The notes under the pieces were generated by a model. That model saw only the letters and a program-made list of their open reading frames with translations, was not told where the DNA came from and did not search any database. DNA of 64,000 nt from Bradyrhizobium sp. AT1 (GTDB taxonomy: Bacteria; Pseudomonadota; Alphaproteobacteria; Rhizobiales; Xanthobacteraceae): the NCBI RefSeq assembly GCF_001590795.1, contig NZ_JXDL01000001.1:716514-780513 (forward strand), given 5' to 3'. A program made the translations under genes and the position numbers. Of this stretch, positions 56,239 through 60,110 are shown one piece after another (the first letter of the stretch is position 1; each line of letters starts with the position of its first letter).

Positions 56239-57015
56239 TCAAGCCTTCACCTTCGAGAACAGGCGGAAGAAGTTTTCGCTGGTCTGGCGCGAGATCTCGT
56301 CGAACGATACGCCGCGCGTTTCGGCCAGCACCTTTGCGACCTCGACCACATAGGCCGGTTCGTTGCGTTTGCCCCGGAACTTGCCCGGCGCAAGATAGGG
56401 CGAATCCGTTTCGACCAGGATCCGATCGGACGGCAGCTCGGCCGCGAGCGCGCGCAAGGCCTCCGACTTCTTGAACGTCAGGATGCCCGTGAAGCCGATA
56501 TAGAGCCCGAGCGACACCGCCTTCAGCGCCAGCTCGCGTCCGCCGGTATAGCAATGCAGCACGGCACGAAACGATCCCTTGGCCGCCTCCTCTTCCAGGA
56601 TGCGGGCGCAGTCCTCGTCGGCTTCGCGGGTGTGGATCACCAGCGGCAGGCCCGTCGCGCGGGCGGCGGCGATGTGGGCACGAAAGCCCCTCGCCTGCGC
56701 CTCCGGCGAGCCGTTGTCGTAGAAATAGTCAAGCCCGGCCTCGCCGAGCGCGACCACTTTGGGATGTTGCGTGAGTGCGACCAACTCGTCCGGCGGGATG
56801 CCGTCCTCCTCATCCGCGTGGTGCGGATGAGTGCCGACCGAGCAGTAGACGTCGTCATAGCGTTCGGCGATCGCGAGCAAGCCCTGTAGTCGCCGCACCC
56901 GCGTCGAGATCGTCACCATGCGGCCGATGCCCGCGGCTCGCGCGCGCGACACGATCCCGTCGAGATCTTCCGCAAAGTCCGGAAAATCCAGATGGCAATG
57001 GCTATCGACCAGCAT
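56239..57015 (-). CDS. tatD: TatD-family metal-dependent hydrolase
   Basis: A 258-residue TIM-barrel DNase. Motifs are the metal-binding DSHCHLD at the N-terminus, YCSVGTHPHHA, VALGEAGLDYFYD, LVIHTREADED, AVLHCYTGG and VETDSPYLAPGKFRGKRNEP. TatD proteins act as 3'-exonucleases in DNA repair. It lies 12 bp downstream of metG, in the same order as in most alphaproteobacteria. Confidence 0.93.
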   Translation of the reverse strand: MLVDSHCHLDFPDFAEDLDGIVSRARAAGIGRMVTISTRVRRLQGLLAIAERYDDVYCSVGTHPHHADEEDGIPPDELVALTQHPKVVALGEAGLDYFYDNGSPEAQARGFRAHIAAARATGLPLVIHTREADEDCARILEEEAAKGSFRAVLHCYTGGRELALKAVSLGLYIGFTGILTFKKSEALRALAAELPSDRILVETDSPYLAPGKFRGKRNEPAYVVEVAKVLAETRGVSFDEISRQTSENFFRLFSKVKA

Positions 57016-57027
57016 CGCGCGAACGTC

Positions 57028-59016
57028 CTAGGCTGCCGGCTCGATGTAGCGCGGGAATGCCGGCGTCGGCGCCGGCAAGGTCGAGCCCGGCGCGATCCGC
57101 CTCGCGCCGCCGAGCGTGGCGAAGCTACGCTCGGTCGCGGGAATGCCGAGGCTGTCGAGCAGCAAGCCCGAGGCGGTCGGCATCGCGGGCTGCGCCAGGA
57201 TCGCGATCTGGCGCACGACTTCGGCGGTGACGTAGAGCACCGTCTTCTGCCTGGCCGGATCGGTCTTGGCGAGCGCCCACGGCGCCTCACCCGCGAAATA
57301 GCGGTTGGCCTCAGCAACGACGGCCCAGACGGCGTTGAGCCAGTGATGGATCTGCTGCGTCGCCATGGCCGCGCGTGACGCGGCGACCATGCCGTCGGCC
57401 ATCGCCAAAATCGCATTATCGTTGTCGCTGAACTCGCCGGGCTCGGGCAGCACGCCGCCGAGCTGTTTTGCGATCATCGACAGCGAACGCTGCGCAAGGT
57501 TACCGAGATCGTTGGCGAGGTCAGCATTGATGCGCGCCACGATGGCCTCGTGGTTGTAATTGCCGTCCTGTCCGAACGGCACCTCGCGCAAGAAGAAATA
57601 GCGCACCTGGTCGACGCCGTACTGGTCGGCGAGGTTGAAGGGATCGACGACGTTGCCGACCGACTTAGACATCTTCTCGCCCCGGCTGAACAGGAAGCCG
57701 TGGGCATAGATCCGCTTCGGCAGCGGAATCCCGGCCGACAGCAGGAACGCCGGCCAATACACCGCGTGGAAACGGATGATGTCCTTGCCGATGATGTGCA
57801 CATCGGCCGGCCAGTAGCGCCAGTTCTTGTCGCCCTCATCGGGGAAGCCGACGCCGGTGATGTAGTTGGTCAGCGCGTCGACCCAGACATACATCACGTG
57901 CTCTTCGTCGCCGGGCACCTTCACGCCCCAGTCGAACGTGGTGCGCGAGATCGAGAGATCGCGCAGGCCGCCTTTGACGAAGCTCACCACCTCGTTCTTG
58001 CGGGAGTCCGGCCCGATGAAATCAGGGTGATCCGCGTAGAGCTTCAGCAGCTTGTCCTGGTACTGCGAGAGGCGGAAGAAATAGCTCTTCTCCTCGACCC
58101 AATCGACCGGCGTGCCCTGCGGTCCGAGCCGGACGCCGTCGTCGTTCAGGCGCGTCTCGTCCTCGGCGTAATAGGCTTCATCGCGCACCGAGTACCAGCC
58201 GGCATAGGTGTCGGCATAGATGTCGCCGTTCGCCTCCATGCGCCGCCAGATCTCCTGGCTGGAACGGTGATGCTGCTCCTCGGTGGTTCGGATGAAGCGG
58301 TCGAACGACACGTTCAGGCGCTCGTCCATCTCCTTGAAACGGCCGGCATTGCGGGTCGCCAGCGCTGCTGCGGTCATGCCCTCACCGGCCGCCGTCTGCA
58401 CCATTTTTTGACCGTGCTCGTCGGTGCCGGTCAGGAAGAACACATCCTTGCCGTCGAGCCGCGCAAAACGCGCCAGCACGTCGGTCGCGATCGCCTCATA
58501 GGCGTGGCCGATATGCGGGCTGCCGTTGGGATAGGCGATCGCGGTCGTGATGTAGAAGACGTTGTCGCGCGCGGGGGCGGCAACCGGCGTCGCGGCTTGC
58601 GGAGCTGCGGCGGGCTTTGGAGCAGGCGGGGCCTTCGGTTGAGAGACCTTGGGTTTAGAGACCTTGGGCTTTGCAGCCTGCGGCGGAGCGACGACGGGAG
58701 CCGGCGCGGCGACGACGGCCGGCGCTGCGGCCTTCTTGGCTGCTTTCTTCGCAGGGGCCTTGGCGGGCTTTTTGGCGGCCGCTTTCTTCGAAGCCTTCTT
58801 GGCGATGACTTGCTTCTTCGCAGCCTTCTTTGCCGGCTTCGCTGCGCCCTTTTTCCCACTCCTCGTGGTGGTGGCCTTCTTGGTCGTCTTGACCTTCTTG
58901 GCAGCTTTGCGCGTCAGCGCCTTCACAGCCTTCTTCGTGGCTTTCTTGGCAGTCTTCTTGGCCGCCTTCTTCGCAGCCTTCTTGCCCTTGGCGGTTTTCT
59001 TAGCTCGCGTTGCCAC
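57028..59016 (-). CDS. metG: Methionyl-tRNA synthetase with histone-H1-like N-terminal extension
   Basis: Charges tRNA-Met. The catalytic part (about 151-662) is a compact type: HIGH motif [15 protein letters not shown] in [15 protein letters not shown] and [12 protein letters not shown]; no C-terminal dimer domain. Before it lies a ~150-residue extension: residues 1-97 are nearly all Lys and Ala in (K)AAKK/TAKK-like repeats, and 98-150 are Pro/Ala/Lys-rich. The start is GTG 59016 with an AAGGA site 8-12 bases before. There is no other in-frame ATG/GTG near the catalytic domain (a GTG at codon 31 still lies in the tail). Frame and codon use continue without a break, so the fusion looks real. 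Confidence 0.93.
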
Positions 59017-59063
59017 GACGAATTCCTTTACGGCTTCTCGAATTTTTTGAATCGAATCTGCGC

Positions 59064-60110
59064 CTAGCGCGTTGCGTCCGCCAGCCAGCCGAACACCGAG
59101 AAAACCAAGGGCTTGCGCTCCAGATTGTAGGTTTCGGTGTCGCGCGCGGCGCGGACGATCTTTTCCCATACCTCAGCTAGACGCGCAAGGCGCGGCAGGT
59201 TCTGGTTGGCATTGGCCTCGTCCGCATGCAGGCGTTCGGCGATCCAGCGATCGATGCCGTCGATGAAGGCGGCGAGCGCGACGCGGTCGCTGGTGCCGAG
59301 CGAATCGCCGAGCGTGTGCAATTCGCGCGGATCGACCTGCGGCAGGCGCGCGAGCAGCGCCGCCGTACGCTGCTGGAGTTTCAGCGCATCGCCACCCAGC
59401 AGCGTCAGGGCCCGTGCGACGCTGCCCTCGGAGGCCTCCGCCGCCTCGCGCAGCGCGGGATCGTTCGGATCGAGCTCGGCCGCCGAAGCCGCCGCGCCAA
59501 TCACGTCATCGGTGACGAGCGGTCGCAGCCGCAGCTTGCGGCAGCGCGACTGGATGGTGGCGAGCACGCGCGCGGGCGCGTGGCTGACCAGCAGGAACAG
59601 CGACCGCTGCGGCGGCTCCTCGAGAATCTTCAGAAGCGCATTGGCCGCGTTTGGATTGAGCTCGTCGACGGTGTCGACGATGCAGACACGCCAGCCTTCG
59701 GCCGCCGCGGTCGAGCCAAAGAAGCCGATCGTCTCGCGCGTTTCGTCCACGGTGATCACGGTGCGCATCACGCCGCGGTCATTGGCGGTGCGCTCCAGCG
59801 TCAGCAGGCCACCATGCGAGCCGGCCGCCACCTGCCGCGCCACGGCGTCATCAGGATCGATCGCAAGGTCTTCGGCGCGCTGCACGGCTTCCGCCAGCGG
59901 CTGGCCGTGGGCGAGCACGAAGCGCGCCATCCGGTAGGCCAAGGTTGCCTTGCCGATCCCTTGCGGTCCGCCGATCAACCAGGCGTGCGGGATTCGCCCG
60001 CTGCGATAGGCCGCCAGCAGCGCCGCCTCGGCGTCGCGATGGCCGAACAGCCTCGATGTCTCGCGCGGGTGCGGAATGGCGCTGTCGCGCTCGGTCTGAC
60101 GCGGGCTCAT
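59064..60110 (-). CDS. holB: DNA polymerase III delta-prime subunit
   Basis: A 348-residue clamp-loader subunit. It has the AAA+ fold with a near-intact Walker A ([18 protein letters not shown]), sensor-like [22 protein letters not shown] and a Cys/Arg-rich helix after it ([14 protein letters not shown]). Most delta-prime proteins lack a working ATPase; this one keeps the Lys of Walker A. It overlaps tmk by 4 bases and precedes metG by 47 bp. Confidence 0.93.

Follow-up and report, generated by a model that had tools for sequence, protein, structure and literature searches.

A histone-H1-like, lysine-rich N-terminal tail on the methionyl-tRNA synthetase of Bradyrhizobium and some of its relatives

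Basic, disordered, RNA-binding extensions of aminoacyl-tRNA synthetases are usually presented as a eukaryotic trait, as in the passages of PMC6213541 that deal with lysyl-tRNA synthetase (LysRS). The same passages describe the N-terminal domain of human LysRS, basic and disordered, as binding nucleic acids and turning helical upon RNA binding. For methionyl-tRNA synthetase (MetRS), sections of PMC11286949 report that activity is enhanced when an OB-fold is fused to the core, and sections of PMC4394549 report that the yeast enzyme is stimulated by Arc1p. Among the titles and abstracts listed in our literature searches, we found no description of a bacterial MetRS, or of another bacterial synthetase, with a lysine-rich tail. 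The principle is known, both as the basic synthetase extension and as the bacterial H1-like domain; the combination is new to us. A conserved tail on an essential bacterial enzyme, together with tail-less relatives and natural domain swaps that can serve as controls, makes the function of such a tail testable in a bacterial cell.

The window, a 64,000-nucleotide stretch of the genome of Bradyrhizobium sp. AT1, carries a MetRS gene with such a tail. An earlier note on this DNA had described a histone-H1-like N-terminal tail in frame with an intact MetRS and had placed the gene as in Table 1, correctly on both counts. The minus-strand frame is open from 57028 to 59169, the GTG start lies 47 bases past the end of the upstream frame, and 153 residues precede the FYIT motif of the core. 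By operon order the upstream neighbour is presumably holB (DNA polymerase III delta-prime), and the downstream neighbour is presumably a TatD-type hydrolase.

Table 1. Coordinates of the MetRS gene, its parts and its neighbours in the window.
Feature	Coordinates	Strand	Basis or remark
MetRS gene with N-terminal H1-like tail	57028..59016	minus	662 aa, GTG start
GTG start codon	59014..59016	minus	
AAGGA, Shine-Dalgarno-like	59024..59028	minus	7 bases ahead of GTG
Lys/Ala-rich part of tail, residues 1-97, AAKK/TAKK units	58726..59016	minus	composition
Pro/Ala/Lys linker, residues 98-153	58558..58725	minus	composition
MetRS core, class I catalytic domain PF09334 and anticodon-binding domain PF19303	57028..58557	minus	Pfam
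Upstream neighbour frame	59064..60110	minus	open frame
Downstream neighbour frame	56239..57015	minus	open frame

The core scored 374 bits against PF09334 and 48 bits against PF19303, and it matched solved MetRS structures, best 4dlp. Two groups of core letters were invariant in 28 tailed sequences, and we take these to be the HIGH- and KMSKS-type motifs of class I enzymes. Both domains and both motifs place the protein among the class I methionyl-tRNA synthetases. Named relatives, among the best 80 of 583, had cores up to 96% identical to that of the window. A genome search for a second MetRS copy found none: this gene gave the only full match, and the remaining PF09334 matches lay in other frames and were far weaker. 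A domain search did not find PF01588, the Trbp/EMAPII-type OB-fold, on this MetRS; the two PF01588 matches of the genome lie elsewhere, on frames of 1058 and 241 residues.

The tail of the window's MetRS has a net charge of +47. Residues 1-97 include 38 K, 3 R and 31 A with no D or E, and residues 98-153 include 15 P, 18 A and 6 K. Among 162 tails collected as open to the core, 145 were unique; a further tailed locus, L355 (G107), was left out of both counts and of the tree, and was counted in the family sample. The unique tails were 70-244 residues long (median 144), with median contents of 28% K (5-95% range 24.8-32.4), 28.5% A, 9.5% P, 1.4% D+E and 0% aromatic residues, and with net charges from +30 to +66 (median +47). 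Composition and charge were thus stable while sequence and length drifted. Basic residues were found mainly in the first 60% of the tail and proline in the last 40%. Dominated by Lys, Ala and Pro, strongly basic and almost devoid of acidic or aromatic residues, the tail has the make-up of an H1-like (KPAA/KAAKK) domain. Some tails departed from this pattern: the tails of L032, L035 and L197 contain 16-20 D/E, with an extra acidic stretch that separates the basic part from the core, and in L023 a Lys/Glu/Arg/Ala-rich stretch stands in place of part of the KAAKK repeat.

Pairs of K/R were enriched at lags 4, 8 and 12 (1.42, 1.24 and 1.19 times shuffles) and depleted at lag 2 (0.41 times) and also at lag 6, ratios drawn from sequences related by descent, which are thus not independent tests. 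This period of four corresponds to KKxx units and differs from the period of 3.6 that a one-faced helix would show. At neither lag 7 nor lag 11 was there enrichment, and the spacing of a fixed-face amphipathic helix was not found. In AspRS-type extensions the lysines line a single face of an amphipathic helix. An AlphaFold model of the tailed MetRS, built from 28 sequences, gave low pLDDT in the tail, within a model that was poor as a whole (mean 45.5, core included).

To assess whether the tail is translated and selected as protein, we compared 98 genomes of the same genus. Four lacked a readable MetRS N-terminus, G041, G096 and G097 having no MetRS match and G073 a fragment, and an assembly gap is the likely cause. 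In the former three, MetRS was found by neither the protein nor the PF09334 search, and two of the three assemblies are at least 95% complete. The tail was intact in 92 of the remaining 94 genomes, with one frameshifted and one tail-less. All 92 intact tails, 118-201 residues long, begin with GTG followed by an Ala codon. The earlier note had named homologues that start within the linker as a finding that would speak against it; the starts are at this upstream GTG instead. By a start-choosing rule that favours such motifs, a Shine-Dalgarno-like motif of at least four bases preceded the chosen start in 92/92, and one of five bases in 86; at other in-frame start codons within the same tails it was present at 45 of 350. 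The claim that there is no alternative start near the core held for the window's gene, where the single internal in-frame start is a GTG 123 codons ahead of FYIT that lacks a Shine-Dalgarno-like motif, but not for the homologues: an in-frame start lies within 40 codons of the core in 62/92, accompanied by such a motif in 4/92. Starts this close to the core would thus rarely be usable, which speaks for translation of the tail.

Selection was measured on 42 disjoint close pairs, with core DNA 90-98.5% identical, drawn from 145 tailed loci with unique cores. Alignment was done at the DNA level, which kept the reading frame from steering it. In the tail, pN/pS was 0.36 in the coding frame, whereas the two remaining sense frames gave 1.32 and 1.14. 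The antisense frames gave 1.28, 1.36 and 0.41, and the last value is read as a mirror of the sense frame, with which it shares its free positions. Differences at codon positions 1, 2 and 3 amounted to 9.8, 10.3 and 21.1%. A protein-guided alignment of the same pairs gave dN/dS of 0.31 in the tail against 0.07 in the core, and core pN/pS was 0.08; constraint on the tail is much weaker than on the core. Alignment gaps were multiples of three in 193 of 263 cases; the 70 others count against translation, although they come from pairwise alignments of repeats. Since the 162 tails were collected as open to the core, the fair measure of intactness is 92/94. The commonest gap lengths in the tail, 3, 12, 6 and 9 bases, suggest that it may grow and shrink by short units. 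Judged by substitution patterns, the tail is shown to be under purifying selection as protein, in one open frame with the core. It stands beyond chance because 92/94 genomes of the genus keep it and because the substitutions are frame-specific, and the same two results agree with the view of the earlier note that an assembly join was unlikely, and speak against a frameshift as the origin of the tail.

The frameshifted tail belongs to G077 (L180), a one-contig genome, and the shift lies within the tail, close to eight consecutive A. Since the shifted frame has no in-frame start ahead of the core, a homopolymer sequencing error is the simplest reading, and slippage is less likely.

The tail was then traced among relatives. 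Among 80 named loci, the best 80 of 583 relatives and not a random sample, 47 were tailed and 33 tail-less. Within this set the tail was present in all 40 loci titled Bradyrhizobium, in three of five titled Afipia (L042, L054 and L064, not L044 and L049), and in none of three titled Rhodopseudomonas. In the family sample, 28 of 136 genomes were tailed, across nine genus codes (g1, 7; g20, 6; g25, 5; g32, 3; g17 and g38, 2 each; g9, g11 and g16, 1 each). This sample began with 149 genomes, of which 11 gave no match and 2 of the 138 left had no N-terminus; 66 of the 136 were read as sequence, and 70 were judged tail-less from an open frame that leaves room for no more than about 60 codons ahead of the core. 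No tail was found in the 136 genomes assessed from the order's other families (150 sampled; 6 dropped for no match, 3 for no N-terminus and 5 as members of the window's own family), nor in the 106 genomes from the remaining orders of the class (142 sampled; 34 dropped for no match at the E-value used and 2 as members of the window's own order). In both samples long open frames (580 aa or more, some shorter) were read and the rest judged by length, a survey that misses tails below about 60-70 residues and frames cut by a contig end. An N-terminal basic extension is thus absent from most MetRS homologues. The earlier note had called such a tail on a tRNA synthetase unusual, which is true outside the family but not inside it, where Bradyrhizobium and some other genera carry it as a rule.

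On a core tree (FastTree, 214 unique cores, 146 tailed including the frameshifted one) tail presence changed at least 13 times, a count that depends on a quickly built tree, some of whose branches are weak, and therefore tails come and go. Some loci outside the main group (L250, L251, L253, L259, L262-L264) have shorter basic tails, which may be independent. The one tail-less genome of the genus, G032 (L198), has a MetRS that starts MANATN like those of tail-less relatives, and it retains a tail on its adenylate kinase (Adk). Identity profiles of G032 showed no clear patch that would mark tail loss by recombination with a tail-less donor. Tail-less relatives, G032 included, have a core of the same size, and the tail would therefore not be required for tRNA charging.

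At six loci (L071, L081, L233-L236) a tail was found on a divergent MetRS core, just 72-74% identical to that of the window. These represent five distinct cores, L071 and L234 being identical. They form one clade (support 100) beside the tail-less Rhodopseudomonas rhenobacensis L082 (support 83), and were 84.6-86.8% identical to L082 versus 75-77% to three nearer references. For the Tmk, HolB and TatD proteins of the same loci the relation was reversed: best matches among four tailed Bradyrhizobium-type references were 88-97% identical, versus 71-73, 74-76 and 80-83%, respectively, to L082.

Taken per 60 bases, DNA identity between L236 and L221 was for the most part 81-97% in HolB and along the tail, with one segment at 75%. 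Close to the junction it dropped to 60-85%, stayed there for about 950 bases, and then returned to 82-93% over most of the remainder (last segment 77%). The two tails were 84% identical. L234 compared with L034 showed the same rise at about +900 to +950; the left edge was less sharp, and the tails were less alike (75-78% in the last 180 bases). Our reading is that the catalytic part was probably replaced by one of Rhodopseudomonas-rhenobacensis-like type within a Bradyrhizobium-like neighbourhood, and that the tail stayed. The nearest sampled donors of the swapped core (L065, L080, L082 and L083) are tail-less; an unsampled tailed donor is conceivable. Retention of the tail could reflect selection, or simply absent homology in the tail. 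On comparison of these loci, tail and core are shown to be separable modules, with the tail gained and lost independently of the catalytic domain.

H1-like sequence is not confined to MetRS in this genome. A protein search of the genome with the MetRS tail as query returned only the tail itself. The DNA pattern for KK[AT][AT]KK gave 27 matches, of which six fell within the MetRS tail, and its reversed control none; as this was the sole motif sought, the resulting list of H1-like proteins is incomplete. Small free-standing KAAKK/H1-like frames (L128, L129, L140 and L141) and a basic frame (L137) were seen. The genome's adenylate kinase (L314, C1:1496446-1497033 on the minus strand, and downstream) has a C-terminal H1-like tail of 107 residues with 40 K. 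Adk was present in 38 of 38 chosen genomes, and 28 of the 30 loci read (L314-L343) carried a Lys-rich tail, of 85 residues or more in every case; many end in KKVTKKRAKR or RLTKRR. The tail was absent in G178 and G196, both g20, and present in a third g20 genome, G229. Of the eight loci left unread, three g20 frames were short (224-246 aa) and five others long (327-420 aa).

The distribution across these 38 genomes did not support a single genome-wide trait behind the two tails. The MetRS tail is present in all six g20 genomes, five of which have short Adk frames (208-246 aa), and the 15 genomes with tail-less MetRS, including G032 and G217, all have long Adk frames (307-420 aa). The MetRS and Adk tails are therefore gained and lost separately. 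The parallel between them suggests a wider habit in the family of placing H1-like tags on housekeeping enzymes.

For the function of the MetRS tail, we tentatively favour, with somewhat less than even confidence, a translated and probably disordered polycationic tether on an ordinary MetRS, which would bind polyanions non-specifically and mainly RNA. A flexible arm of about +47 should, by its charge, bind RNA under cell conditions. The first partner would be tRNA, with rRNA or mRNA as possible others, and binding might raise the local tRNA concentration or keep MetRS in RNA-rich cytoplasm. The tail would then act in cis, like the basic extensions of eukaryotic LysRS or the OB-fold domains of other MetRS, and the Pro/Ala segment would be a spacer giving the basic arm mobility relative to the active site. 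We place this reading first because of the charge of the arm, the absence of an OB-fold tRNA-binding domain from this MetRS, and the published LysRS, OB-fold and Arc1p precedents. Frame-specific selection, conservation in the genus, steady composition, KKxx spacing and modularity also speak for it. Counting against it, as far as sequence comparison can tell, are the tail-less relatives, the Adk tail, the weak constraint relative to the core, and a K/R spacing that is not that of a fixed-face helix. To our knowledge adenylate kinase is not a tRNA-binding enzyme, and tRNA is no obvious ligand for it; that Adk is also tailed weighs against a story of tRNA only and for a general polyanion tag. The ligands that the earlier note had listed, tRNA, DNA, the nucleoid and the ribosome, are all plausible, and polyphosphate is a further candidate absent from that list.

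A broader version of the polyanion tag, which we offer as speculation and consider rather unlikely, would make H1-like tails interchangeable addresses carried by central enzymes of this family, at the N-terminus of MetRS and the C-terminus of Adk. Such tags would outlast replacement of the attached enzyme domain and bring the charging of methionine together with the balance of adenine nucleotides in one polyanion phase, be it RNA, nucleoid or polyphosphate, as a prokaryotic counterpart of the eukaryotic synthetase extensions.

Tethering of MetRS, or of a moonlighting function of it, to the nucleoid through DNA, as is thought of the AlgP/PhaF KPAA domains, is an unlikely alternative to the RNA tether. 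For bacterial MetRS neither a partner nor a function related to DNA is known to us, RNA is bound just as readily by polycations, and the AlgP/PhaF domains are C-terminal KPAA repeats while the MetRS tail is N-terminal with Pro mostly in the linker. The composition is nevertheless like that of H1-like domains, the same genome encodes the small free-standing KAAKK-type proteins, and sections of PMC9239181 report binding of DNA by an AlgP fragment and by KPAA peptides.

About equally unlikely is that the tail is a tolerated, slippage-driven basic extension of little function, in which selection purges only stops, frameshifts and acidic or sticky residues since the start codon precedes the tail. 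Length change mostly by short units, repeated gain and loss on the core tree and weak constraint are consistent with this, as is the viability of tail-less relatives, which makes the tail dispensable in evolution. The narrow range of charge and composition across the unique tails argues against it, as does near-universal retention in the genus although recombination with a tail-less donor could delete the tail. Tails also stayed where the catalytic patch was replaced, which may equally reflect missing homology in the tail.

It is about as unlikely that the tail binds or co-condenses with polyphosphate, so that MetRS and tailed Adk partition to polyphosphate-rich bodies or respond to polyphosphate in starvation. 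In sections of PMC9239181, AlgP, with a similar domain, associates with polyphosphate granules, and condensates form from polyphosphate and polycationic peptides; passages of PMC6213541 say that basic synthetase extensions go helical on polyphosphate binding. The H1-like Adk tail in many genomes of the family would fit this, but the MetRS and Adk tails did not go hand in hand across the 38 chosen genomes. Last, a wrong start or assembly join, with the protein beginning near the core and the tail untranslated, was rejected as scarcely credible: it could appeal to the in-frame ATG, GTG or TTG codons near the core in two-thirds of the genus homologues and to the frameshift in G077, but is opposed by frame-specific selection, by conservation across the genus, by the rule-favoured Shine-Dalgarno-like motif at the upstream GTG, rare near the core and at other tail starts, and by a G077 frame that would leave the core without a start.

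Compared with known systems, the tail resembles the N-terminal extension of eukaryotic LysRS (hRID) and similar basic extensions in being N-terminal, lysine-rich and absent from most homologues of the enzyme. The likeness is one of sequence features, hRID itself being disordered with non-specific RNA binding, and we claim no homology: the MetRS tail is on a synthetase of the other class, in a bacterial host, and is longer, with repetitive AAKK units and a Pro/Ala linker. An extra tRNA-binding module is a known solution for MetRS, in the sections of PMC11286949 and PMC4394549 that treat OB-fold (Trbp111/EMAPII type) fusions and Arc1p in trans. Those systems use a folded domain, C-terminal or in trans, and that domain (PF01588) is missing here. 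The tailed Adk of the same family is likewise a housekeeping enzyme with a KAAKK-type tail, at the C-terminus rather than the N-terminus and with a distribution not tied to that of the MetRS tail. Alike in composition are the bacterial H1-like domains, namely the AlgP/PhaF KPAA tails, chlamydial Hc2 and the KAAKK proteins of the same genome, which share the Lys/Ala/Pro make-up and high positive charge. Length change by short in-frame units is a further likeness; in Hc2 the units are lysine-rich pentamers, and for the MetRS tail the gap lengths suggest it. Unlike these domains, the MetRS tail has a Lys/Ala part nearly without Pro and is attached N-terminally to an essential enzyme of translation.
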